Below are positions 19,323-63,101 of a DNA stretch of 64,000 nt, piece after piece (positions within the stretch are counted from its first letter, which is position 1; every line of letters starts with the position of its first letter). The translations under genes and the position numbers were made by a program. Source of the DNA: Thozetella sp. PMI_491 (Eukaryota; Ascomycota; Sordariomycetes; Chaetosphaeriales; Chaetosphaeriaceae); the NCBI GenBank assembly GCA_021432635.1, contig MU270073.1, forward strand, positions 152,161-216,160, read 5' to 3'. The notes under the pieces are model-generated. The model had not been told where the DNA came from, searched no databases, and saw only the letters and a program-made list of their open reading frames with translations.

Positions 19323-21257
19323 TGCGAATCAACGCATGCCTCCGCTGCGAGTCTCGGGAGGAGGAGGAGGGAAGAGCGGATAGCGCTGGCTAGCTAAGCC
19401 GAGGGGCTTCGAGCTGTGTTTCGCTTGTTAGCCACGAGGCTTGCCTGTCGGCATAGAGCCGTGCAGCTCGGCCACAAGCATCAGGCTGGATGATGCATGA
19501 TGGCTGCGGTGTGAGGCCACAGCTGGTGGGGCTAGCAGACTCACTTACGGGCTCGTCTATTCGCACGCGATTTGGACCAATTTCCGAGGGGTTCAGGATG
19601 GCGAGGAGGGAGCGCGGGATGAGAAATGCCCAAAGTTTGCGATAGAGATGGCGTTGGAGGGGGCAGCAGTGTGTGGAAATAGTCCCGCATTGCCAGGTGC
19701 AACATCATCCATCAGAGGACGTTGAAGTGGGGAGCTAGCTGCCAGGTCCTACCAGGTCCTGGGCGGCCCACTACTGACGGAGCTCCAGCAGGATGAAGAT
19801 CGATCGGACCCGGTCATTGGCTGCCCGCTGCAGCTGCTACTCGAACCCCAAAGCATGTGTGTCCACCGACCACAACACACGCCACCGTGGGCCAGCAACA
19901 CTTTCAACAAAAACAGGGTTCGTGCTCTCTGTGCGCGTGCCACCGCAAGAGGTATGCAGCCTCGGGCAAGCGAGGGAGTGGTAGGGAGGTAAAGGAGGTC
20001 TTTGGTGCGTGATGCACTTCCCGCCCTCCACGTCGGCCGGCCAGCCCGTCGTGGCCGTGAGAGCGGCTGCTCCATGCCCGTCTAGGTAGGTACTCTCGAC
20101 CGCAGCCCAGTATTAATATCAGTCCATGTTTCCAGATAGTAGTAGAGCTATATTGGCCCGCACATCGCAGTCCTTGGCGAGGAGCCGAAGAGCCCGCATA
20201 TCGCCTGGCCTTAGACGAGTCCATTTTGGAGAGACAAAAACTGCCTGCCTGCTCCTGCCCCAGGGGTTCCCAAGGCATTGTAAAGCAAGTTGACTAAGGA
20301 ATATACGGTTTGGCTGCCTACGGAAAGCACGTACAGGCGCAACATAGTGCGGGACCAAAAAATGTATAGGCAATACGGCCTGTGTCCAGGCGACGATGGG
20401 CTTCCCCTGAATGACCAAAACCCCCCAAATGCGCCCCCATAAAGCACCTGCCGCCACTAGGTTTGCCGGGGGGGGGAAGCATTCGGTTGGCTGACCCTGT
20501 TGGATCAAACCTCGTTCTGCCACGTCCAACCGAGCCACGCCACTAGTAGGATTGGCTGTTCGCCATGCCCAATAAATGTTCCCAATCAGCCAGGCTAGTA
20601 TGACTTGGCTCGTCTAGACAACGTCGTCAATTTCAATCGAAACCGGATCAGTCCCTCTGCTTCTTCCCGTCGTCGAACCCCGTATCCCCGACGATTGCTA
20701 CGGCGCCTGGAAACGAGCTGACTACGCGTCGCCTTGTTGCTCCCGTGCTCGGCCCTTGGCTGTGTCTCTCGCAAGCTTGCACGCCAAGATCGGCCAACGG
20801 CAACCATTGCATGGAGACAACCTGACTCTTCATCACCACTGGGCGGGCCACGGACGACATCGAGGGATTGGGCGACGGGACCCCGGGCTCGTCGACCACG
20901 GACTGCCTCGTAGCTCATCGGAGCACCTGCTCCCAGGGCCGCGCTAGGCTCGGTTTCGGCGCGCGTAAAGTGCTCGGGAGCGTCAGCCCTGCGCAGCCAG
21001 CCAACAGCGGCTTACCTGGCGGGCCACGATATCGTCCAATTCAGCCATACTTGTCCGACCGACCAATCTCGCTGCGCAACCTAATATGTGACTTGGGCGC
21101 CGCCTCAAATCGTCGCCGCCTGCCGCTCCTAATCCCCTTGCCTACACCCCCCTACTACACTGCAGACTCGACTACCCCGCAAGCTGAGCCCTCCGTGTGA
21201 GCTGCTGGAGTGGAAGCCCGGGTGCGTCGACGGGGACTATGAATTCTGGCCGCACCA
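19323..21257. other. divergent intergenic region, no supported gene
   Basis: The 1.9 kb between the V-ATPase subunit C start and the AT-hook gene start is unique sequence. A 139-codon minus-strand frame at 20119-20538 has no protein-like composition or domain. The part from about 20640 to 21257 is CT-rich on the + strand, as expected of a 5' leader for the AT-hook gene. Confidence 0.55.
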
Positions 21258-24200
21258 ATGGCCACTATCCCCTCAGGTGAGCTCGCCAATGCCGCTGCCT
21301 ACCCCCATGGGCTGCTCCGCGAGGACAGCAGCAGGTGTGCTAACACAATTCCCGCAGACCCTAAGGCCGTCGCTAGGCCGGCGGGCAAGGACGCGGCCGC
21401 CGTGGCGCCTTCCCCTGCTCGACCCGCCACCACGACCGCGACCGCGACTACGACCACGATCCTCAAGATTACACCTGTCCCGGTCCCCAAACCCGGCTCG
21501 ATACCCTCGCTGCCGCCATCCGCCGAGGCCGCTGCCGCCGCCGCGCGCGCGCAGGCCGCGAGCTCTGGATCGCCCGTCCCGGGCGCCTCAACCGCCAACT
21601 TCGGCGTTCTTCAGCCTGGCGGGCCAGCCAACCACTATACCGATGGACGTGTTCGCAATCCGATGCCCAGTAAGTTAAGGGGGAAGACGGATGGATCTAA
21701 GGGCAACTTCGGCGTCATGCTCATGGACGTGGGCATGAGCGAGGCGGCGGAACGTGATGCACGGGCCAAGCGCACCAGCGAGAGCACAGAGGCGGCGGCC
21801 AGGCGCGCCTTCGAGAACGGCTACGTATCTCTGAGGAGAAGCCGGTTCGTTCAGGTGCCTGACGAGAACGCGGGTTCACCCGCAGTGCCACAGCCATATG
21901 TCCCTCAGACCCAGGCTGCCCAGGCTGCCCAGGCTGCCCAGGTTTCTCAGGCTTCCCAGGCTTCCCAGGGAGACAGCGCAGCTGGGCAGCAGCAGATTCT
22001 CACGCCAGAGGAGATCAAGTCGGAGCAGGCCCGACTTCTGACGCTCCTAAGGAGCTTGCATCCCGTACTCGTCGTCGATCACTTATGTAAGGCATTGGCC
22101 TTCTTTGGGGGCATTCCCGGCGCGCCGCCCCCGGCAAACGGCGTCTTTCCCGAGAGTGCGGATGCGAATGGCTCGGGGAGACTGCTTGTCGGCTGGCTCG
22201 CAGAGATATTCCCAAAGTTAGGCCACTCGAACAAGAACAGGGCTTTGAGCCCCATACGACAGCTCGATGTTCTGCGAGAAGATGTGCTCCGAGATCTGGA
22301 TCACCCTGCGCACAGCACTAGAGGGTCGGTACCACCGCTGCCCGGTGCGTCCTCGTCTACGTCGACTGCGCCGGCAGCACCGGCCGAACCCGAGAAGCGA
22401 CGAAGGGGCAGGCCGAAAGGCAGCAAGGCTGCCAAGCCTCGCAAGGACAAAGGTATTAAAAAGGGCCCCATGAAGCCAATCGGGGCGGCAAGCCAACCCG
22501 GGCAGAGTGCACCGGCCGTAGCCGAGAGCTCCTGGATCGATATCGAAGGGGACGATGGCGATGGCGAGGGAGAAGAGGTTGATGCTCCCGACGACATCGA
22601 CAGAAGCGTAATGCTCCTTGCTCAGGCAGCAAGCCCAGAACCACAGGCGCAGTCGCAAACAGTCATGCAGCTGCAGCCGCCGGTCCCATCGGGAAGTGAC
22701 ACACAGTCCATAAGTACGCCGGCCCGAACGTCGTTGCCCATGGGCGTCCCGGCCAGCAGCGATCCCACCGCCGCCGATGGCAACCCAAAGCGCCGCGGCC
22801 GGCCGAAGGGCTCCAAGAATCGCCCAAAGGAGACGCTGAGCTCTACTCCTCAAGCCAGCCAGACGCCTCAGGCCTCCCATGGCGCGCTTGCTTTGCAGCC
22901 ACAAGGGGCCGGACTTGCGACGCCGTCCAATTCCTTCACTAACCAGTCCTTTACTGCGGTGAATACGCAGGTAGCCGATGCGACCCCTACCTCTGACAAG
23001 AAAAAGCTCGGCAGGCCAAAGGGGTCCAAGACCAAGCCTAAAATTCCCTCGGAAGCGACTCCGAGTGCCCAAGGGCAGGGCTTGCCGCTGGCGATTCCTA
23101 TGCCGACGACCCCATCTGCTACCTCGAGCATGATAGCCCAGGCCCAGGCCTACTCGGCAACCCCGGGTGTCCAGGCCGGGCAGGCAGCGAGCGCGGCGAA
23201 CACCGGCCAGAAGCGCAAGCGGAACCCAAGCAAAAACACCAACAGCCTCCAACCCACGGCGAACATGTCGCACAATCCTGCCGCGCTGTCGCAAATCAAC
23301 GGGTCTTCTCTCCCCACACCTTCCAGCAACCCGTCATCGCAGGCAGATGCGACCCCTACCATGCCAGCTGCGCTGCCGCCAGCCAAGCGCCAGAAGAAGA
23401 CGAAAGATGCTAAAGCGCAGGTGCCAAACCAGGCCCTGGGGGTGACATCGAATGTTGCGGAGTACGGAGCGGTTGTGCCCACTTCTGCTTCGGCCTCCGG
23501 GCCAGGATCAGATGCTAAGATGGCGACTTCAGCATCCGCTCCGCTTCAGATACAATCTCCTGAGCCGGTCGACCCCCCTACTCCGTCCCTCCATTCACCA
23601 GGGCAGGGCCACTTCGAGGTCCAGTCGCCAACCATGATGGAGAACTACGAGGCACAGCTTCAAGCCCAGCTGGAACAGGCAGCAGAGGCCGAGGCACAAA
23701 AGTCAACTCCAGTCCTAGGTCCGGCACAGACTCAAGCCAACAGCCGACGCCTTATGTCAAATCGCGCGCAGCAATCACAGCAGCAAGTGCAGCAACCACA
23801 GCAGCCGCCGCAGCAGCAGCAACCGCCGCAGCAGCAACCGCAACAGCAGCAACCGCAGCCGCAAAACACGTACCACCAGAGACAGCACTCTCAACCGTCA
23901 CAGCAAGCACAGTCGGCTGCTGGCCAGAGCAGGTCCCCCAATCCTCAGAGCCAGTCGGCAAAGTCTCAGACGACAAGTCCCATGGTCTCGCAGCAAGCAT
24001 CTCGGTCCTCCCAGTCCTCTTACTCACAGTATCGCTCTTCTACGGCGCAGTACAACCAACAAGGCTCGTACGGGATGCAGCAGTCCCAACAGGCGCCCCA
24101 AGGCCGCCAGCAGCAGCCATATTCGACGCAGCAGCAGGCGAGCCCCCAAATTGTCACGCCCACGTCGCAGACTCAACAGTATTCATCGACTGCTCAGCAG

Positions 24201-24848
24201 CCCCAACAATACACCGCCTCGCAGCAGTACTCGGGTGCCTCTCAGTCACCTTCGTACTCGGGTGGGCAGCAGCGCTACCAGCAGCAGCAGAATGCCACTG
24301 CTACGTCGACCAATTCGTACACGGCTCACCAGTCACCGCAGTTTTCAGCGAACAATAGCTTCAGCTCGGCGGACCACACGTACCGCAACTCGACGGCGGG
24401 AATGAACCCCGCGCCACTCAATACGTCGCTGAACAACTCGTCCTACGGCGGCCAGCGGAGCCAATCCTCGACACCGTCCACAGCCAACGTGTACCACTCC
24501 AGCACCCCCTCCCACGGGCTTCCACAGTACAGCCCTGCTAGCTCTGCTCAGCACCAACAGGCACACCAACGGTCCACCAGCTCTGGCCACCACTCTTCGA
24601 GCGGCCAGCCCATGACAGGCATGCAGAACTTCGGGACCAGCGCTGCGGCAGCGGACTGGGGCATCTTCGACACAAGCACCCTCGACACGACCAACAACCA
24701 TTCAGCGCTGGCCCTGAACAACACGGGCTACAACATGAACTCGGGCGCCGTGTCTCGCGCATCGACGGGCGCGAGCAATGCATTCGCGGGCAACGGTCTA
24801 GCAAGTTTTGACACACCAGGGACTTACTACCACGGGGTAAGGAGGTAG
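21258..24848 (+). CDS. AT-hook, glutamine-rich nuclear protein (unnamed)
   Basis: Probable chromatin or transcription-associated protein; I do not recognise a named family. Best model: exon 1 at 21258-21276 and exon 2 at 21358-24848, 1169 aa. The 81-nt intron has GTGAGC, a GTGCTAACAC branch site and a CCCGCAG acceptor, giving MATIPSDPKAVARP at the N-terminus. Residues about 80-180 contain NFGVLQPGGPANHYTDGRV and NFGVMLMDVGMSEAAERDAR. A run of 9-nt repeats (about 21911-21968) encodes AQ/SQ triplets. Three AT-hook cores are visible: RRRGRPKGSK (about 350), KRRGRPKGSK (about 482) and KLGRPKGSK (about 553), plus basic GQKRKRNPSKN. Residues about 800-1000 are glutamine-rich, and the C-terminus is Ser/Asn/Gly-rich. 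Because intron 1 is a multiple of three without a stop, retention would add 27 residues. A GTAAGG just before the stop could be a last donor, so the 3' end is uncertain. Confidence 0.8.
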   Translation: MATIPSGELANAAAYPHGLLREDSSRCANTIPADPKAVARPAGKDAAAVAPSPARPATTTATATTTTILKITPVPVPKPGSIPSLPPSAEAAAAAARAQAASSGSPVPGASTANFGVLQPGGPANHYTDGRVRNPMPSKLRGKTDGSKGNFGVMLMDVGMSEAAERDARAKRTSESTEAAARRAFENGYVSLRRSRFVQVPDENAGSPAVPQPYVPQTQAAQAAQAAQVSQASQASQGDSAAGQQQILTPEEIKSEQARLLTLLRSLHPVLVVDHLCKALAFFGGIPGAPPPANGVFPESADANGSGRLLVGWLAEIFPKLGHSNKNRALSPIRQLDVLREDVLRDLDHPAHSTRGSVPPLPGASSSTSTAPAAPAEPEKRRRGRPKGSKAAKPRKDKGIKKGPMKPIGAASQPGQSAPAVAESSWIDIEGDDGDGEGEEVDAPDDIDRSVMLLAQAASPEPQAQSQTVMQLQPPVPSGSDTQSISTPARTSLPMGVPASSDPTAADGNPKRRGRPKGSKNRPKETLSSTPQASQTPQASHGALALQPQGAGLATPSNSFTNQSFTAVNTQVADATPTSDKKKLGRPKGSKTKPKIPSEATPSAQGQGLPLAIPMPTTPSATSSMIAQAQAYSATPGVQAGQAASAANTGQKRKRNPSKNTNSLQPTANMSHNPAALSQINGSSLPTPSSNPSSQADATPTMPAALPPAKRQKKTKDAKAQVPNQALGVTSNVAEYGAVVPTSASASGPGSDAKMATSASAPLQIQSPEPVDPPTPSLHSPGQGHFEVQSPTMMENYEAQLQAQLEQAAEAEAQKSTPVLGPAQTQANSRRLMSNRAQQSQQQVQQPQQPPQQQQPPQQQPQQQQPQPQNTYHQRQHSQPSQQAQSAAGQSRSPNPQSQSAKSQTTSPMVSQQASRSSQSSYSQYRSSTAQYNQQGSYGMQQSQQAPQGRQQQPYSTQQQASPQIVTPTSQTQQYSSTAQQPQQYTASQQYSGASQSPSYSGGQQRYQQQQNATATSTNSYTAHQSPQFSANNSFSSADHTYRNSTAGMNPAPLNTSLNNSSYGGQRSQSSTPSTANVYHSSTPSHGLPQYSPASSAQHQQAHQRSTSSGHHSSSGQPMTGMQNFGTSAAAADWGIFDTSTLDTTNNHSALALNNTGYNMNSGAVSRASTGASNAFAGNGLASFDTPGTYYHGVRR
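21911..21968 (+). repeat. coding 9-nt tandem repeat (Gln-Ala-Ala / Gln-Ala-Ser units)
   Basis: About six imperfect head-to-tail copies of a 9-nt unit (CAGGCTGCC, drifting to CAGGCTTCC) lie in the AT-hook protein gene. They encode an AQAAQAAQVSQASQASQ stretch. Such in-frame repeats vary in copy number between strains. Confidence 0.85.
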
Positions 24849-49736: not shown

Positions 49737-51892
49737 TCATCGTCGACCTCCCGCGGGCTTCCCGAAGAAGATCTCGTCCTTAGGGACGGAGCCTTTCTCG
49801 AGCTCGCTCAGGTCTGCCTCGCACAGCCGAGCGTTGTCCGCCGGAATGGACCACTTCTCCAGCTCATCGAGCCTGGAGAGAAACTGCATGGCCATGCCGG
49901 ACTCGCCATGCCAGATCATATGGCAGTGGAAGAGCCAAATACCCGGGTTGTCCGCCACGAACCGTATCAGGTGCCATCCGTAGCCCTCCACAGTCGCGAC
50001 GTCCCGGCGGAGAGGATTGGCCACCATTGTGTTGTTTTGCGGATTCAGTAGCCCTTTGCCATCCGGCGCGAAGCCAAGTGCTTCGTAGCCAGGGAAGTAC
50101 CCGTGGCCGGCGGCTAGGACCCAGAACTGCTGGCCGTGCAGGTGGAACGGGTGGTTGCCCTCATCGAAGCTTTGCAAGATCACGTCGACCACCTCGACAT
50201 CCTTGCTGCTGATGACGAGCTCGTGCACGGGGTCGAAGGCGCGCGTGTTGACGCCTTCGGCGGCGAACGACTCGTTCTGCGCTGCGAGCCCCTCCACGAC
50301 GCGGTGTAGAGTGGGCGACTGTACCTTGGTCCGGAAGGTGGACTGGTTGAGAAAGCCACGCTCAAGGCGCCAGTTGCCAATCTCGAGGTTCACGCGGAGA
50401 TACCACGAGTGGTGGGCATAGGCGGGGGCCGGCGTCTCAACCGCGGGAAAATATCGCCCGGGCTTGGGGTCTCGGCATTCGACAGCATAACGGTTACTGT
50501 CATTCTCTGTGGTGGGAACGGCTGCTTCCCCCTTTGCAGACGCGCCGGCTACGTTGGTGTAGCGAATCACGGCTCTTGCCTCGTCGAATCCCTGCTCCGG
50601 CAGGACGTTCTCGGAGAAGCAGTGCTTGACCATTCGAGCGCGAAACCAGAAGGTATCACCAACGGTGTGGTTGGGAGCAGTGGCGGAGAGCACTATGCTG
50701 TAGCGCTGGCCAGGGCCGACGAGAATGCCATCCTCCGGGGTGGGCGCAACCTCGGTGCCGTCTATCTCCATGACAGGCATGTCAAAGTGGCGGTCCGCCG
50801 TTACTTCGAACCAGGCGAATGCCCCGACATTGAGGATGCGGAGGCGATGGTTCTTGCCCTGCTCGAGATCGAGAATAGGGAGGGCAGCAGAGGACGAGTC
50901 ACAGCGGCGGTTGGTATGCAGCGCGCAGTCGACCTTGTTGGCACCGTTGATGAGGGCTGAGTTGGGGATAGGTGAGGTCTCGCTCCCTGGTGAGAGCTTC
51001 TCCATGAGGAGCAGGCTCGAGGGGTCATAGTACCAGTCCTGAAGCATGACGACTCGGTCCGAATCGTAGGCTACTAGCCCGTCCTGCTTCTCTTTCCGCG
51101 AGTGCACGACAATGGGGCCTACCAGCCCATCTATTCCCTGGGCGGCCTGGTGGCCGTGATAAAAGTCTAGGAGAATTTATTAGCCACATGTCGCATAGCA
51201 GCGGTCTCAGACCAGGATAGGGAAGTCATACACGTTCCAGACTGGAAGGTGATCTTGAACTTGTATTGAAACTTCTTCCCCGGGGCAATGGGGCACTGGG
51301 TAACGCCGGGCACGCCATCCATCCAGTTGGTGCCGTTCTGGAAGATGCCGTGCCAGTGGACCGTGGTGGCATTGACGGACTGGTTCTCCACATTGACGAC
51401 GATGGTGTCTCCTTCATTACATCGGATCATCTCGCCAGGGAACTTGCCGTTCACGACGAGCATAGGTCGGAAGACACCATCTGGGTTTGCGACGATATCC
51501 TGGACGACCCAGTTGTACTCGCGCGTCTTGGGTGCGGAAAAATAGTCCCAGTTCGGATCCAGAGTATAGTCTGAGCTCGGGCGCCGGAAGCCGGACGAGG
51601 GGCCTTCGCCGTCGCGGGTGCTTGGCGCGAGGATCCGGAAGAGCAGGACAAGGGCGACGATGACGGCCAGGCCTAGGACGACTAGAAGACTGACCAGGCA
51701 CATAGCGCGCCGTTCCAACCTTGGGGCGGGCCGCGGGTGGCCCTCATCCCCGTAGCCATCCTCCCCAAGCAGTCTCTCCTGCTGCTCCCCCTCCGGATCG
51801 TGATCATGCTTCTCTTCCAGCTCGTGTGACTCCGCATCCTCGTGCGGGCCGCGGACGGGCGAGTGCGAGCGGACTCGCTTGTACCCGGACAT
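49737..51892 (-). CDS. membrane-anchored multicopper oxidase (laccase-like)
   Basis: Copper oxidase that reduces oxygen to water while oxidising phenolics, metals or other donors. Exons 51892-51232 and 51166-49737, with a 65-nt intron; 696 aa. Instead of a signal peptide it has a 64-residue charged N-terminus (MSGYKRVRSHSPVRGPHEDA and more) and then one transmembrane helix at about 65-85 (CLVSLLVVLGLAVIVALVLLF), so it should be a type II membrane protein with the enzyme facing the lumen or outside. All four copper-ligand segments are intact: HWHGIFQNGTNWMDG (about 179), YFYHGHQAAQGIDGLVGP (about 221, formed by the splice), HPFHLHGQQFW (about 558) and HCHMIWHGESGMAMQF (about 633). The T1 axial position, ten residues after the Cys, is Met, which usually means a lower redox potential. 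Many N-glycosylation sequons are present. The anchor separates it from Fet3 ferroxidases, which have a C-terminal helix. Substrate unknown. Confidence 0.92.
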
Positions 51893-54500
51893 GGTGGTGG
51901 GCGAAGCGAGGGCGCACGGAGGGAGCAAACCCCGAGGTGTTGTGACCCTTCCTATCTCCTTGCCTAGTTAAGCCGGGGACCGGGCATTGAATTACAGCCT
52001 GCAGTCTTGGCAAGGCGGTCCTGCAGCGGAAACCCTTCAGGATGTGCAGAATTGGGAGGTGAAATTTGTCATTTCCTGGAGCACCGCGAGAAACGAGTCG
52101 GAGCGCAACCCAGTTGTGGCAAAAACAAGAAAATCACTAGCACAATGGCGATGGGCAGGAAAGGGTGGAAAGGGGGCAGGATTGAGGTTGGAGGAAAGTT
52201 CTCAGCCTCGAGGCCACCTCCCTAGGCTGGGGCCCCACTCTAGCAACAGGGGTTCTCAGCCATGCACCTCACCGGGAGGTACCCGTGGTGGTTCCCCCAT
52301 GTTTGGTTGGTGGGATTCGCCCCCAGTGCTCCTCCCTCGTCCCAATCAGCTGGGCCGGCGACCTCAGGCGCATGCTCAGGAAATCCAGACTAAGACACAG
52401 TCGGCATGTAGGTATGTACGCACAACAATAGGGCGGCCGTTATCTTAGTCAAGCCCACGAGCGACTAGAAAAGCGTTTTACTTCGGGTATCGGCTTGGCG
52501 CACGTGGTCGCGCTCTCACCTGGCTTCCTGAGTATCCTCATCCATTGCATCCATTCGCACCCATTGTCCGCCAGCAGGAGACACAGTCTCGTTGGTGCAC
52601 AGGAGATGCTACACAGCGCGGCAGTTTTAGACGACGACAGATTAGCGCCAGGGCTGCGGCTCTTGGACGAGGCGCTCGCCTTTGTCCGTTTTGCCCGTAG
52701 TTCTAGTTGGCACGGGACTAGCTCGGCTTCTCTATCGCGACGCCAAGAGACCCAAAGCCCGGGGCTTGCACGCTGTCGCGAGGCTCGGCCTTTGTCATGT
52801 GTCTCGAAATAAACACTCAGTGCCCGGTTGAGTCGCGCAGCGCCAGGTTGGGTCGAGGGAGGCGAGAAGTTGTCTTGAGACAGCGGCGATTGTTAGGACA
52901 GACCCAACGTGGGCCGCAACGCTGGTTCGGCGCCTCGGGCTCCACTTCTTGCCGAGCTGCGCCTCCGGTCCCCGGAACCACGGCGAGGGGCGAGTAAAGC
53001 CATGGGTGGCCTCGTGCCCCTCCCGTCCTCCCGCCCGATCGGCATTCTACTTTCGGCTCCCAAAGCCCGGGGGTGTACCAGGCCAGGGGGAAGCTCAAGA
53101 TGTCGACGGCCAATGAGACAAGGAGCCGCCGATAGGTGCACTAGTGACGATACTACTCTGATTGACAATTCAGCATCACCTCGCTCTTCGGACTGCGGTT
53201 CCTAATGACTGGGTCCCGAGCGCATACCCACACGCGCTCGCGGACTCTTTCCGTCGCTACAAGATAGGCCGTTCATCAATCTCCGGTCCCCGTTACCCAG
53301 CTGGTCCCAGGCCGGGTGGCTGAGGAAGATGGGTCATGTTCTCAGTTGCAGGAGCCGTTGACAACTAACGTCTCCGCTTGACCGCCGCCGGTAGTCCCTC
53401 TTTGAGAAGTACAGAAGTTCCTCTTTGCGAGGTACTTTCTCTTCGCGAGATCTTCGTCTGTGGGGCGGGCGTGTGGTGTGTAGGTAGATATGTATGTACC
53501 TGACATAGTGAGCCATCAGCGGCGCGCACGCACCACACGACAGCCGATGGCCCCAGGCAACAACAGCAGCGGGAACGATGGAACGTCGGGAAACTGCCGC
53601 ACCTGCTACTTGCGCAGTACGTATCCCTGGGTCCAAATTAAAGTGATTACGGAGTAGCCAACTACCTCCCTTGCCAAGCCTGCCTACATCCCATACTTAG
53701 CTTTGTGGGTAGTCGAGTATGACTCACCTTCCACAAGCGCCAAAATAGGCTAAGCCATTATTCAGCACTTGCCTTGTGCTCGGTCTAAATTTTGAACCGC
53801 AACTATGTACTTGTACTGTCAGATGTCATACACAACAGACTGTCTACGGGCTGCCCTGGAAGTCGAACCGGCCTACACGGTGGCACGCCCTGGTCGTAGG
53901 GCTGCGAGAACAAATTTTGATTGCGCACTAGGCAACTACGACTGCTTGGACCCATAGCGTTTGGACGCATGAGCGATAGTATAGAGCATCTGACTCTGGT
54001 CTTCTTCCCTTCTCCGACTATAGCGGTACTCTTGCTCTCCTTCTGTTTTATGTTGCCGGTAACGAGGGGGACGCCGGATCGTCGCACATCCCAATCGCCC
54101 CCCGACAGAATCATGCCATGCACCAGCGGGAGGCACGCATGTTGTGGTACTCGGCACGCCCACTTACAGTAGCGAGGTCGGGTATCCGGCAAAGTAGCAT
54201 TAACCTTTCCTGCCCAGCGTGACTGGGAAGCCAACGGGGCAGATATCAAGTTTCGGAGTCTGCCGCTTCCACGTAGTAAACAAGGGAACTGTGCGGGCGT
54301 CGAAATCGGGCAGCGGGCACCGCCTAGTATCCTAGTTCAGATAGCGGAGCGCCAGGAGCACATCTCGCCTCCTCCGCTGCAAGACGACCTTGATGGAGCG
54401 GCAACCTGTCTGGCAACAGAGGGGTTAAGCTAGCAATCTCCAAGAAAAAGAATTACAAATAAAAAGGGGGAGAGAGAGAGAGAGAGAGCAAGGCTCATCA
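51893..54500. other. intergenic, no supported gene
   Basis: The upstream side of the multicopper oxidase gene. It contains no recognisable gene; a minus frame of 148 codons at 53803-54249 is not protein-like. An (AG)n microsatellite lies at 54471-54488. Confidence 0.5.
54471..54488. repeat. (AG)9 microsatellite
   Basis: Nine AG dinucleotides follow a short A/G-rich stretch in intergenic sequence. Confidence 0.9.
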
Positions 54501-56371: not shown

Positions 56372-59199
56372 ATGACCCCCACACCACCATCGACGACGCC
56401 GTCCTCGGCTGGCCGGTCACCCGAAGAGCAGTTTCGGGTGGTACGGAAGAGGAACAGAGTCCCGCTGAGCTGCTATCCCTGCCGGACTCGCAAGTAAGTG
56501 AATCTAGAACCGAACCGGTAACTCGTTCCCCGCGCGAGACTAACCCGCTGCGCCTAGGTTGTAAGCTACAAGCCGTCCCCCTGCCTGCTAAGCTCGGGAG
56601 TAGGAACTCACATGCCTTGTTCTTTAGGAAATGCGACAGGAACCATCCCTGTAGCAATTGCGTGAAGCGTGAGGGCTCGGACCCTGGGTCGTGTTCCTAT
56701 GCCACGCCCGCCTCTCGCAAGAAAAACCAAAGTCAAGGCGCTACGAGCCCAGATGACATGCAGAACCGTATTGACAGATTAGAAGGCCTAGTGTTATCTT
56801 TGATGCATGGAGGTGCCAACATCGACCCCTCCTCGGCGGCAGCGGCGGCGGCAGCGACGGCTTCCGCGGCTGTCAAGACAACTTCCACCACAGACAGCGG
56901 CGGCTCGATTCGATTTGCCGACGAAGACCTAATGCAGGACGACGAAGACGACGAGAGCGACACTGACGATGGACTGGCAACTTCCCTTGGCGTGCTGAAA
57001 GTCGATGCCGACCGGGGAAAATCGCTGTACATCGGCCAGGAGCACTGGCACACCATCCTCGCCGACATTGCGGAGGTCAAGAACTACTACGCGGCCCACA
57101 AAGCCGACCTAGAAAAGAGTTATGAGAAGGTAATGATGAGCAAGCCCATGACGGCCCGGAATGGCCCCACCTTCCTCCTGGGAGCACCACCTGCGAGTGA
57201 AGTTGAGCTCAGGGCGGAGCTCCCGCCCAAGTCGAGCGTGCTGACCCTCTGTGGGCGGTACTTCAACTCGATGGATAATGCGGTCAACATCATCCACGCG
57301 CCAACGTTCCACCAACAATTGCGGAACCACTGGCAAGACCCCTCCAAGTCGTCCATAATGTGGCTCGGCCTGCTCTACTCAGTACTGTGCCTGGCTATGC
57401 TAAGCTACCACAAGGTGGGCGACGAGCCTCCCGAGTGGAAGGGGAGGACGCTGGAGCTGGCTGCTGAGTACCGAATGAGGACCGTGCAGTGCCTGGTCAC
57501 AGGCGATTATACGAAGCCGAGCGAGTACACCGTCGAGACGATGATGCTGTACGTCTTTGGCGAGTTCTCGTCGCGTTGGGACGCCGACGTGGGCTTGTGG
57601 CTGATCACCTCACTGGTCACGAGGATAGCCTTCCGGATGGGCTATCATCGAGACGCGAAGTGGTTCCCATCCATATCCCCTTTCCAAGCGGTAAGTGTTC
57701 TTCGTTTCGGATCTAGCTCTGCAGACGGCTGAACCTTTCACGACAGGAGATGAGAAGGCGGACGTGGGCTTTAGTCAGAATGTCAGATGTCGTATTCTCG
57801 CACCAGGTCTCGCTACCTAGTATGATATACGAGCACGACTGTGACACTGGCCTGCCGCACAATATCTTTGACGAAGAGTTTGGCCCGGACACCAAGGTCC
57901 TCCCGGCCTCTCGGCCAAATACTGAGCCGACGCCTATCAGCTACATGATTGCGAAAGTCAAGCTGTGCCTGAAGCTGGGCGTCATTCTCCAGGCTACTGG
58001 CCGCGCCAAGAATCACGTCCACTACGACGACATTCTTCGGTTCGACGCGGAATTGAGGGATATTCGAGAGGAGCTACCCCCGCACCTGAAGCTCCAACCC
58101 CTTGACGGCTCGCACGATCCCCTGACGCTCATCATTGCCCGCTTCAACATCGACATTCTCTACCTCAAGATCATGTGCCTATTGCATAGGAAGTACATGT
58201 CGCGTGCGAGATCGAACCCACGATATGCCCACTCCCGTCGCAGTGCGATTGAGGCGTCCATGGAAACGCTGCGCCATCTGTCGACGCTCCACCGAGAGTC
58301 GCAGCCCAGCGGCCGGCTGCGGTCGATCAAGTGGTACGTCAGCTCGATTGCCACTAAGGACTTCTTGCTACCGGCGATGCTCATCGTTCTCGACCTGCAT
58401 TTCGACAACCAGGCGGAGCGCTCTGGGAAGCGCCAAGACTCGCAGAGCCTTTACTTCTGGACACCGGAGCAGCGTGCAGAGATGATCAGCAACCTCGAGA
58501 TGACACGGGACATCTGGAAGGGCCTGGCCCACACTTCGATGGAGGCGGTGAAAGCCTCCAACATCCTGGACCTCATGGTCGACAAGATCAAGAGCCCTAC
58601 GTCCAAGGACTCCTCCACTAGCCCACCGGCTGTCCCGGTGAGGTCTGACCTGTTCAATACCGACTCGCCCGAGATGCAGCCCGAGCACTCGGCGGCTATG
58701 ACCTTGGGGATGCTCTCTGGGGGCATGACGCCGACCACGGCTGCCACGCTCGCCGGTGTGCAGAGCCCAGGAGGGACCGCGCAGGCACCCCTTGACATGG
58801 CCGGGCTCACATCGTCTAGCAGCGCAGGGATGACGCCCGACTTTGGGGCAGACATGCTGAGTATCAACAATGCCGGGTCGCCGTTTTCGTCCATGTTCAG
58901 CAACATGGGCGCCGCCCCGAATAACTTTGACTTTACATCCAACTTTGATTGGGTAAGTTGGCGCTCGAAGGACGCACCGCCCTATGAGACGTACCCCGCG
59001 TTAACGTATACACTACTAGGAATCATTCGAGAACTACACGCAAACGGCCCACTGGGGGACGGACCAGTCCTTCCAGTTCTTCTCGGGCAACACGGACCAA
59101 CAAGGACAGCAGACACAGGGGCAGCAGCAGAGCACGCCCGGCTCGGCAGACAACAGCCCGTTTTCCTTTGGCACGTCGAACCTATCAGGCTCAAGCTGA
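56372..59199 (+). CDS. Zn(II)2Cys6 transcription factor with fungal-specific TF domain
   Basis: Nuclear DNA-binding regulator; its target pathway is not evident. Five coding exons: 56372-56493, 56558-56560, 56628-57690, 57747-58952 and 59020-59199; introns of 64, 67, 56 and 67 nt; 857 aa. The zinc cluster (Cys 34, 37, 44, 50, 53, 64) reads LSCYPCRTRKLKCDRNHPCS. The 3-nt exon GTT supplies the end of the Lys41 codon and the start of the Leu42 codon. Without it the second spacing would be five residues instead of the canonical six. A dimerisation-type helix follows (MQNRIDRLEGLVLSLMHGGA), then an Ala run and an acidic segment. The fungal-TF domain spans about 255-560, including NAVNIIHAPTFHQQL, MWLGLLYSVLCLAMLSYHKV and MRRRTWALVRMSDVVFSHQV, where intron 3 is placed. 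The C-terminus is Ser/Thr/Met/Gln-rich and likely an activation region. If the last intron were retained, a different, unlikely tail would be read. Confidence 0.9.
56558..56560 (+). other. 3-nt internal coding microexon (GTT)
   Basis: The sequence CGCCTAG|GTT|GTAAGC places a standard acceptor and a standard donor three bases apart. The upstream donor is AA|GTAAGT (56493/56494) with branch GACTAACCC; the downstream acceptor is TCTTTAG|G (56627/56628). Joining AA-GTT-GAAATGC gives Lys-Leu-Lys-Cys, completing C-X2-C-X6-C. Splicing directly from 56493 to 56628 would give Lys-Lys-Cys with X5, and using the first acceptor without the second intron hits a stop at once (TTG-TAA). Confidence 0.8.
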
Positions 59200-60517
59200 T
59201 CGCCTTCCCTTCATTACGTGGATGCTGTGTTGTGGGGACCAGGTTCTCCTTGCCCAAGTTAGATGGGCATCACCTAAGAGGAAGACATAGTCGGGCATTG
59301 GATGGACGGTGCTGGTCTCGGTCTGGTACTACAAAATCACGAGGAACGTGTATGATGGGCCAAGTATACGTGGATGTTAAGAAGGGTGTAGGCGTCCCTA
59401 TTTTGATGGCTACCTTGCCTGGGTGCATTGCTATATCTTGGAAACTCGTGGGCTAGTCTAGGACGATTGTCTAGGACGATTCTGTATAGAACATGCCAAT
59501 ACCCTCCTCTTAAATTGCTGAGCCGGCCAGTGTTTCGACCCTGCGGAGTAAACTAGGCTGCCAAATGCAGCAATATTAGCCCGTCAGCGCAACGACCTCG
59601 CGATGGATCATTACGTACCCACCGCACTCTCGGCGGTTCCACACGTCAATCGGCGGGGGGCTCGACATTGTTTACTCGTTCTCAACGGCGGCGCCCGCGG
59701 CACCACCGAAGCTATTATGACGAAGCCTCAGCGTGCTGCAATATTCGGCCCTATTGACGAGGCATTGCGAACGTGATGGCCGTTGCGGCCTCGTCGCTCT
59801 TCGCTTCCACCAATCTGGACGTCTCACCGCGCCGGCACTTGGACTGGTACAGCACACGTGCATGCGGGGTGCATGCCGGAAGACCTGCATCGACGACGAA
59901 GAAGGGGTGGGCAGCCAGAGCTTGCGGAGTACAGTACATACTATGGTCCTGCTGCACAGGTACCGCCAGGCTGCTTTGGGACCGCCTAGCCCCTGAGCCC
60001 CTGGTGCGGCAGCCAACCGCGATGTCAGGCGGGCGTGGCGCCCGATTGGGGCAAGGCTCCCCCTACTAGTTCGCTCCTCTGCCGCCCGCCACGGCGGCTT
60101 GGGCGGCCAGGGGGAGCCAACACCATGCTACCGCATGATCGAAAGGGCCGATACGCCGCAAGGAGAGAGGGCTATTCAAGGGAAGGGGGGCCAGCGCGGC
60201 GAAGGATTACGCTTCAGCTAATGGCGCCCGCTTCATCACCTGGGCAGAAGGCCAACTATTGACGGATTGTCTTGCCCACCTCGCCTACGCTGCGACATCC
60301 ATGTCTCTCTGCTTACTAGTCCAGGAGCATTCGCGTATCTAGGTAGTATACTCGTGGGGGCGCCCGCCCGCTCCTTCTCGTGGGAATATTATTATATATT
60401 CGCTACGTGGGGAGTATAGATAGTCCCGCGGCTGGCACCTCTTTGACGCCTGCTGCCTCTCCTCGGTCACAGCAAACCTGCCAAGAAGCACCCTCTCGGC
60501 CCCCCTCAGCTACCGTG
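59200..60517. other. intergenic with amylase promoter
   Basis: 1.3 kb between the stop of the Zn2Cys6 gene and the amylase ATG. It holds the regulator's 3' UTR and the amylase promoter. A quick visual scan found no clear CGG-N8-CGG (AmyR-type) site, but this was not exhaustive. No gene is seen. Confidence 0.5.
60393..60398 (+). promoter_or_regulatory. TATA box of the amylase gene
   Basis: TATATA in AT-rich context (GGAATATTATTATATATTC), 120 nt before the ATG at 60518, implying a leader of roughly 90 nt. Consistent with the strong TATA promoters of secreted-amylase genes. Confidence 0.55.
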
Positions 60518-63101
60518 ATGCAGCTCCTCGGTCTCGCCACTACGGCGCTGTCGGCGCTGGCAGCGCTCCCCATCGCCGGGGCCCTCAGCGCTGCCGACTG
60601 GCGCAAGCAGTCCATCTACCAGGTCCTCACGGACCGCTTCGCCCGCACTGATCTGTCGACGTCGGCGGCTTGCGATCCCTCCCAGGGCGTGTACTGCGGT
60701 GGCACATGGCAGGGCCTGGTCAAGAAGCTGGACTACATCCAGAGCATGGGCTTCACGGCCATATGGATTTCGCCCGTGGTCAAGCAGGTTGAGGGCAACA
60801 CTGGCGACGGCTCATCCTACCACGGGTACTGGGCCCAGGACATCTGGAGCCTCAACTCCCACTTTGGGTCTGCCGACGACCTCAAGGCACTCTCAACAGC
60901 CTTGCACGCTCGTGGAATGGTAGGCCGTTTCCCCAGAGGCCGGGGAACATGACGCCGCGGGGGGTTGAGGCGGCGGCACGTATTGTTCGGTGAGACTAAC
61001 ATGGATGCATAGTACCTCATGGTCGATGTCGTTGCCAACCACATGGGCTACATTGGATGCCGCAGCTGCGTCGACTACAGCACGCTCAACCCTTTCAACT
61101 CGGTAAGAGCGGGCGGTCTCACATGAAGTAACTACCTTGGCTTGCCACGACACAAGGGGCTAATTAGCTATGGCTAGGCCTCTTATTTCCACTCGCCGTG
61201 CACCATCGACTACAACAACCAGAGCTCGATCGAGACGTAGGCAGCTCCTTTCCTGACACTAACAGGGGGCGGTATTAACCTTGAAATTAGGTGCTGGGAA
61301 GGCGATGACATTGTCAGGTAAGCCTCTCCTTCCTTGTTGTATAAGGACCTCCTAGCGAAAACCCGCGATGGCAGAAGGCCACTAACAAGAAGCCCATAAC
61401 AGTCTTCCTGACCTCCGAACCGAAGACTCCAGTGTCCGGAGCATCTGGAACAGCTGGATCAACCAGCTAGTCTCTACCTACGGCATCGACGGCCTCCGCA
61501 TCGACAGTGCCAAGCACCAGGAGCAATCCTTCTGGCCCGACTTCCAGAATGCAGCTGGCGTCTTCTCTCTGGGTGAGGTCTATCATGGCGACCCGGCCTA
61601 TGTCGGCCCCTACCAGAACTACCTCCCCGGTCTGCTCGATTACCCCAGGTGCGTTGCTTATCACTTGTCTGCTGGCACCCCTGGGCCGACACGTATTAAC
61701 CTGGCATGGCATATAGCTATTACTGGATTACTCAGGCCTTCCAGTCGACCAGTGGCAGCATCTCGAACCTCGCCAACGGGCTTAACCAGCTCAAGACCTT
61801 GAGTAAGCTCTCATCACTGGCGTGAGCGATGGCGGAGCTCGGCTGACTGTCTCTCCATAGCCAAGGACACGACCCTCTACGGATCGTTCATCGAGAACCA
61901 TGACCAGAAGCGCTTCCCGGCACTTACTGGCGATGCGGTAAGTTTCTCATATCACTTCGGTATGGCTTCTATGTCCCTCGGTACACTGACGCCCCGCACA
62001 ACAGGCACTCATCAAGAATGCCATTGCTTTCATGGTTATGAAGGATGGTACGTCCAGCTGAGGCATCCCTGCAACGACGCAGCCAAGGCGTCGTCCTCGT
62101 ACTGACGCTCTATACAGGAATCCCAATCATCTACCAGGGTCAAGAGCAGGGCTTTGCGGGCGGCGACAACCCTGCCAACCGCGAGGCTCTCTGGACCTCA
62201 GGCTACGGGACGTCCTCGCAGTACCACTCGTGGATCGCATCCCTGAACCAGATCCGCAACCAGGCCATCTACCAGGATGCCGGCTTCGTCACCTCTGTGG
62301 CATCGGTCGCCTCCACGAGCGACCATGTCATCGCGCTGCGCAAGGGCAACGCCGGCGCCCAGATTGTCAGTGTCTTTACCAACGTGGGATCCAGCAGCTC
62401 CGCCAGCGTCACGCTCGCTGCGTCCTCGACCGGCTTCACGGCGAACCAGCAGCTGATCGATGTTACGACCTGCACGTCTTACAGCACCGACAGCACCGGC
62501 AGCCTGGCTGTAACGCTCAACGGCGGCCTGCCGCGCGTCTTCTACCCAAGCGCCCGCCTGCAGGGTAGCGCGATCTGCACGAACACCACAGGTACGGCTG
62601 CTTCATCGTGAAGCTGGCCATTAGACAACAAGCCAAGGCTAACCCGCTCCAGTGCCACCTAGTAAGACGACCGAGGCCCTCGCCACCTAATCTAGCTAGA
62701 CATGTTACTAATGGATGCCCTACAGCCTGCTCCTCCGCTGCGATCACCTTCAACGAGCTAGTCACCACCGTCTACGGCGACGCCATCAAGATGTGAGCCA
62801 GTTCTCCTCTCCTAAGTACCCGCTGGAGGCTGTCAGCTGACCTAGGATTCCCCCACGAAGCGTCGGTAGCATTGACGCTCTCGGTAGCTGGGACACGAGC
62901 AAGGCCATTGCGCTCAACTCCACTCAGTACACCTCCAGCAACCCGCTGTGGTCCGTCACGCTTACCTTCACCCCGGGAGTCTCGTTCGACTACAAGTTCA
63001 TCAAAGTGAGCAGCTCGGGGGCCATCACTTGGGAGAGCGACCCGAACCGGAGCTATACCGTCCCGTGCTCGGCCGCCACCGTCTCCAGCAGCTGGAGGTA
63101 A
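60518..63101 (+). CDS. secreted alpha-amylase, GH13 with C-terminal CBM20
   Basis: Extracellular endo-acting starch hydrolase. Eleven exons: 60518-60919, 61013-61102, 61178-61236, 61291-61317 (27 nt), 61403-61648, 61717-61802, 61861-61937, 62005-62047, 62118-62591, 62726-62792 and 62861-63101; introns 54-134 nt, most with CTAAC/CTGAC branch sites; 603 aa. The signal peptide is about residues 1-22 ([21 protein letters not shown]). The GH13 barrel starts [20 protein letters not shown], with [10 protein letters not shown] and the catalytic triad Asp227 (GLRIDSAKH), Glu251 (SLGEVYHGD) and Asp318 ([10 protein letters not shown]). Domain C ends near 500. CBM20 follows almost directly ([60 protein letters not shown]) with no long Ser/Thr linker. 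The last intron has two in-frame acceptors; the downstream one gives the canonical IKIVGSI. Confidence 0.94.

Follow-up and report, generated by a model that had tools for sequence, protein, structure and literature searches.

A probable 3-nt coding exon within the zinc-cluster codons of a Zn2Cys6 regulator gene of Thozetella sp. PMI_491, as read from the genomic sequence

The window, the whole stretch of 64,000 nt of Thozetella sp. PMI_491 DNA analyzed here, carries on its + strand an intact gene for a Zn2Cys6/Fungal_trans regulator of 857 aa. Its coding span (56372-59199, + strand, in positions of the window) is divided into five coding exons, of which the second is only three nucleotides long:

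56372-56493, + strand: exon 1, beginning at the start codon and ending with base 2 of the AAG codon in CRTRK
56494-56557, + strand: intron 1, 64 nt, phase 2, GTAAGT...CTAG, branch motif CTAAC with its A at 56543
56558-56560, + strand: micro-exon GTT, the third base of AAG (K) plus the first two bases of TTG (L)
56561-56627, + strand: intron 2, 67 nt, phase 2, GTAAGC...TTAG, branch motif CTCAC with its A at 56610
56628-57690, + strand: exon 3, the remainder of the zinc cluster (KCDRNHPCSNC...) and the beginning of Fungal_trans
57691-57746, + strand: intron 3, 56 nt, phase 0, GTAAGT...CAG
57747-58952, + strand: exon 4, the remaining part of Fungal_trans and the C-terminal part
58953-59019, + strand: intron 4, 67 nt, phase 0, GTAAGT...CTAG
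59020-59199, + strand: exon 5, the C-terminus, with the stop codon ending at 59199

The start codon stands in the context ccaccATG, and in-frame stops lie upstream of it. With GTT included, the whole 857-aa protein matches Zn_clus (PF00172) at 28.9 bits and Fungal_trans (PF04082) at 54.2 bits, above the curated Pfam cut-offs of 21 and 23, respectively; a scan against NCBIfam gave no match. The zinc cluster of the regulator reads CYPCRTRKLKCDRNHPCSNCVKREGSDPGSC. Its cysteines are spaced C-X2-C-X6-C-X5-C-X2-C, within the CX2CX6CX5-12CX2C range quoted for Zn2Cys6 proteins, and its final loop is X10 (VKREGSDPGS, 56662-56691, + strand), one residue over the quoted range of 6-9 (PMC12881047); the Zn_clus profile still passes.

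The other genes of the window look like ordinary fungal genes. Of 85 open frames listed, 30 were scanned, and 14 of these, including frames of a multicopper oxidase and of an alpha-amylase, have Pfam matches at E 0.001; scanning the 64-kb window for Rfam families and tRNAs yielded none. Upstream of the regulator lies a multicopper oxidase gene (49737-51967, - strand) in two frames joined by a candidate 65-nt intron (51167-51231), and a 1201-codon open frame (21243-24848, + strand) has no Pfam match at E 0.001. An alpha-amylase gene (60347-62611, + strand like the regulator), apparently split by introns, begins some 1.1 kb past the stop codon of the regulator gene, its catalytic domain beginning in the frame 60347-60952 and its domain C lying in 62042-62611. 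In Aspergillus, the regulator AmyR is known to lie beside an amylase gene.

Between CGCAA, which ends at 56493, and GAAATGC, which starts at 56628, lie 134 bases that divide into a 64-nt intron, GTT, and a 67-nt intron. Two introns of these lengths, with GTAAGT and GTAAGC donors and TAG acceptors and with GTT between them, had been described in an earlier note on this DNA, and both sequence and coordinates agree with that description. Removal of both introns with GTT kept gives CGC AAG TTG AAA TGC (R-K-L-K-C) and thus CYPCRTRKLKC with the X6 spacing; at the cDNA level, the corresponding junction strings would be CGCAAGTTGAAATGC and AAGTTGAAATGC. The other outcomes are likewise those the note had foreseen, namely X5 spacing upon skipping and an early stop upon partial splicing: skipping of GTT (junction string CGCAAGAAATGC) yields CRTRKKC with R-K-K-C and X5 in a frame that stays open for 856 aa, retention of intron 1, alone or together with intron 2, brings a stop after 41 aa, and retention of only intron 2 brings one after 42 aa.

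The note had also held that only inclusion of GTT restores the X6 spacing. We enumerated every splicing solution with ends within 56460-56700 and introns no shorter than 40 nt, either one intron (GT-AG or GC-AG) or a pair of GT-AG introns, counted as frame-keeping those solutions that remained open for more than 150 residues, and searched their products for the zinc pattern CX2CX6CX5-12CX2CX6-10C, in which the upper limit of 10 for the last loop was chosen to admit the regulator itself. Among the 36 frame-keeping solutions (19 with a single intron and 17 with two), the zinc pattern occurs in exactly one, namely the 3-nt exon, which bears out the claim. It stays the sole solution when the minimum intron length is lowered to 30 nt (1 of 39) or 20 nt (1 of 47). 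A single intron with other borders was considered as a candidate and rejected, as the zinc pattern is found in 0 of 19 such solutions and in 0 of 20 and 0 of 22 at the two shorter minimum lengths.

The Zn_clus profile provides a test that is independent of the CX2CX6C pattern used in the enumeration. The N-terminus with GTT scores 33.2 bits against the cut-off of 21, while once GTT is left out the scan lists no match to Zn_clus at E ≤10, a level at which HMMER filters drop most matches above about 0.1. Isoforms using the acceptors at 56603 and 56600 score 18.5 and 19.7 bits, below the cut-off, so that only one of the four N-terminal isoforms scanned passes, the one that includes GTT. The closest solved structures are four constructs of the yeast protein HAP1/CYP1 (31.7-34.2 bits), the best match in the PDB being HAP1 at 34.2 bits, and on this comparison the predicted zinc cluster of the regulator resembles that of HAP1/CYP1. 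The best HAP1 construct starts with RKRNRIPLSC, where the regulator has RKRNRVPLSC, and a Val of HAP1 pairs with the Leu encoded across the micro-exon; Val stands at this position in all of the best 5 of 26 alignments, four of which are to the same protein. When the skipped form is compared with HAP1, the score falls from 34.2 to 28.0 bits, and in the best three alignments a one-residue gap opens exactly opposite that Val. Because the skipped form retains a 28.0-bit match, the missing Pfam match is not by itself proof that no cluster could be made. Judged from spacing and profile, a zinc cluster without GTT would probably not form, and we infer that the skipped form would be unable to bind zinc. 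The proposal in the note that skipping leaves the frame intact but damages the domain is thus upheld by an 856-aa product with no Zn_clus match listed and one residue short relative to HAP1.

The splice signals on both sides of GTT are complete. Donors were scored with a table derived from 2022 Fusarium introns (PMC5677156), in which the third exon position is printed twice with different values for C, of which 17 was taken. The donor of intron 1 scores 6.29 and ranks 5th among the 3285 + strand GTs in the window; that of intron 2, GTT|GTAAGC, has no consensus base on its exon side, scores 2.76, and ranks 73rd of 3285. The donors of introns 3 and 4 score 6.09 and 6.42, placing the intron 2 donor below the other three of the gene. 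The branch motif of intron 1 is CTAAC, with its A 14 nt from the last intron base, and that of intron 2 is CTCAC, with its A 17 nt from the last intron base, and no AG lies between the A and the acceptor in either. CTRAY is the major branch motif, accounting for 91% of introns in the Fusarium set; CTCAC departs from it and fits the rare CTHAH form, although it is absent from the four examples listed for that form (PMC5677156).

How much of this might arise by chance depends strongly on what is required. We generated 300,000 random inserts of 134 nt, keeping the ends fixed: 47,888 (16%) contain an AG-N3-GT able to rescue the zinc pattern, 3,241 combine rescue with YAG and GTRNG sites, and only 8 have both branch points in addition, and thus the bare motif is weak evidence and the complete set of signals strong evidence. 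The identity of the triplet carries less weight: 60 of the 64 triplets rescue the zinc pattern at this position, and the residue encoded by GTT therefore adds only a HAP1-like hydrophobic match. Complete candidate intron pairs 3 nt apart arose five times when a single strand was scanned in 200 Markov sequences of 64 kb, and the real window has one on the + strand and none on the - strand. YAG-N3-GTAAGY occurs twice on the + strand and once on the - strand, with about 1.0 expected per strand. Candidate introns number 30 on the + strand and 34 on the - strand, fewer than the Markov mean of 49.6, and a lone candidate intron therefore means little. A second candidate pair of complete introns, 9 nt apart (gap 62653-62661, + strand), lies just past the amylase stop at 62611; intron pairs with a gap of 0-15 nt are expected 0.64 times per strand, and this pair is probably due to chance.

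The simplest competing account is that the 134 nt form one intron, that GTT is not an exon, and that the zinc cluster is X5-spaced or defective. The donor at 56494 and the acceptor at 56627 are indeed both good, the joined frame is open, and the 28.0-bit HAP1 match of the skipped form fits this account as well. On the other hand, the resulting product has no Zn_clus match listed and is exactly one residue short relative to HAP1, and a complete acceptor-N3-donor arrangement with both branch points inside the 134 nt would be very unlikely by chance. Length points in the same direction. Introns of 64 and 67 nt fit the other introns of the gene (56 and 67 nt), while one of 134 nt would be about twice as long; eight intron candidates obtained in the window by mechanical joining of open frames, probably partly chance, have a median of 63.5 nt and include one of 130 nt. 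Very short exons annotated in Zn2Cys6 genes can, nonetheless, be wrong, as with a 13-bp exon in a Scedosporium Zn2Cys6 regulator that was judged to be an annotation error (PMC12881047), and this counts as a caution against the GTT exon. Weighing these points, we regard a single 134-nt intron as highly improbable.

We therefore favor a model, which we consider very likely, whereby GTT at 56558-56560 would be a genuine, normally included 3-nt coding exon spliced by intron definition with sequential removal of its two introns. That the micro-exon is real as a feature we hold with high confidence; its real splicing, its constitutive inclusion, and the sequential removal of its introns are the parts that we infer from the genomic sequence. 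In this model, each short flanking intron would be recognized across itself, as in the intron definition demonstrated in Pezizomycotina by the two-step excision of stwintrons (PMC5639578), and with intron definition the tiny exon itself needs no recognition by the spliceosome. Introns 1 and 2 would be excised one after another, because 3 nt cannot hold two spliceosomes simultaneously; either order would serve, as the sequence demands no fixed one. Joining of AA, GTT, and G would then produce AAG TTG (Lys-Leu) and so place six residues between zinc cysteines 2 and 3. Excision of intron 1 would create the very poor donor GTTGTA, and loss of GTT by re-splicing is therefore unlikely. Constitutive inclusion of GTT appears likely. 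Low-level skipping or retention, giving defective or truncated products, is possible.

The same junction bears on a recursive, stwintron-like route in which intron 1 would be removed first and AA|GTTGTA would then act as a donor, GTT being lost in two steps. Removal of intron 1 does leave a GT at the junction. As a donor, however, GTTGTA scores -7.87 and ranks 2391st of 3285, while the GTAAGC 3 nt downstream ranks 73rd, and the two-step loss of GTT would again yield the X5 protein; such a route is extremely unlikely. The resemblance to stwintrons with a forced order of removal, which the earlier note had suggested, is not supported. Stwintrons are similar in that two adjoining introns of ordinary size occupy one site in a fungal gene; in a stwintron, however, the external intron works only once the internal intron, which interrupts one of its splice elements, has been removed (PMC5639578, PMC6616335). 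Here, introns 1 and 2 are complete, each with its own donor, branch motif, and acceptor, the intron 1 junction is a poor donor, and, unlike in stwintrons, GTT is needed in the mRNA. The splice elements of each intron are left uninterrupted by the other intron, and the arrangement is therefore not a stwintron. The accessible text of a further stwintron paper (PMC9024468) contains no occurrence of short-exon or zinc terms.

A micro-exon, taken as an internal exon of ≤30 nt, describes GTT at the sequence level, where its 3 nt are flanked by introns of 64 and 67 nt whose signals are complete; the reconstructed domain lends indirect support to its presence in mature mRNA. GTT would thus belong to a known class, and what is unusual is its size of 3 nt and its position inside zinc-cluster codons. 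For plants, micro-exons of 1-15 nt are described; animal cases are the 3-nt exon of Drosophila TnT and, in Ncam, exons of 30 nt in rat and 3 nt in mouse (PMC8831610, PMC8042270). The idea that an exon this small is close to the lower size limit is fair, with the correction that the limit itself is 1 nt, as in Fusarium CYP621A (PMC12940212) and in Arabidopsis APC11 (PMC4674806), where a 1-nt exon is reported. In a DNA-binding regulator gene, the 3-bp micro-exon of Drosophila homothorax (PMC7392893) is similar, but it lies in an animal gene and is alternatively spliced from another exon.

Among the matches listed from the open literature, to which most subscription papers do not belong, none reports an exon of 3 nt in any Zn2Cys6 gene, and the only other fungal exons of ≤3 nt were those of Fusarium CYP621A (1 nt) and Dactylellina lipS (3 nt). 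CYP621A (PMC12940212) is similar to our case in that the gene, from a filamentous ascomycete, has an ultra-small exon within a conserved motif; its exon was inferred from motif spacing in an over-long apparent intron of 139 nt, and 20 orthologues, together with 18 reads from two species, support it. It is, however, a P450 gene with an exon of 1 nt, the skipping of which shifts the frame, and not a zinc-cluster gene with an exon of 3 nt. The lipS duplicates of Dactylellina haptotyla (PMC5639578), likewise from Pezizomycotina, carry two 3-nt exons per gene, but these are lipase genes whose exons are mentioned in passing, with no motif, switch, or transcript evidence given for them in the accessible text. 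Another close case is Trichoderma Xlr2 (PMC11121469), in which a micro-exon between two introns also encodes part of a Zn2Cys6 cluster, was missed by annotation, and is reported as switch-like. The Xlr2 micro-exon differs in being 20 nt long, not a multiple of three, and in encoding two cysteines (PCRRCE); Xlr2 is described as XlnR-like and its micro-exon is supported by RNA, whereas the GTT exon is predicted from sequence. The Xlr2-type PCRRCE is not encoded by GTT, and the cluster of the regulator is SCYPCRTRKLKCD.

Xlr2 brings in the alternative that GTT is included or skipped according to condition, producing either a working factor or a form that stays in frame and has a broken cluster beside an intact Fungal_trans domain, which could act as an on/off or dominant-negative device. 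Skipping does leave the frame open for 856 aa and abolishes the Zn_clus match, the 20-nt zinc-cluster micro-exon of Trichoderma Xlr2 is reported to be glucose-dependent (PMC11121469), and exons of 15 nt and 33 nt are skipped in fungal rtnA (PMC6616335). Preservation of the frame is, however, a property of any 3-nt exon and thus no sign of regulation, and skipping would need a 134-nt pairing that bypasses the nearer acceptor. The RNA fold is not special (z +1.66; 193 of 200 shuffles are no less stable), and nothing was found in the window that bears on regulation of GTT. In Xlr2, moreover, reads linking exon 1 to exon 3 were absent (PMC11121469), and therefore simple skipping is not what was observed there. 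Condition-dependent inclusion is accordingly very unlikely, and its strictest form, in which regulated skipping would decide, as a binary switch, whether the product is an activator that binds DNA or an almost full-length protein that does not, is slightly less probable still; the on/off idea is speculation. If it were true, no switch exon that preserves the frame could be smaller than GTT in a fungal transcription factor.

For the preferred reading, a normally included GTT exon, the significance lies elsewhere. The exon is a clean example of one that gene predictors and read mappers easily miss or misjoin, and because missing it costs the predicted protein its recognizable DNA-binding domain, zinc-cluster regulators may be under-counted or misannotated. 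In A. nidulans, about 159 of 520 transcription-factor genes or transcripts need some re-annotation, and 124 of these cases carry Zn2Cys6 and/or fungal-specific domains (PMC8396895). The GTT exon is also a natural test of the smallest exon tolerated under intron definition, for which it is suited because the motif spacing dictates the right answer.

As for relatives of the regulator, searches of viral_contigs (with the first 107 residues) and genome_contigs (with the first 686), which are not fungal genome collections, returned 12 pattern matches each, with 0 confirmed. Tandem duplication of one intron was considered as a source of the pair and rejected: the two introns align with a score of 3.5 against a shuffled mean of 3.02, with 219 of 500 shuffles scoring at least as high, and, being unlike each other beyond their ends, they leave a duplication unsupported. 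The simplest guess on origin is that one intron may have been gained a codon away from an older one.
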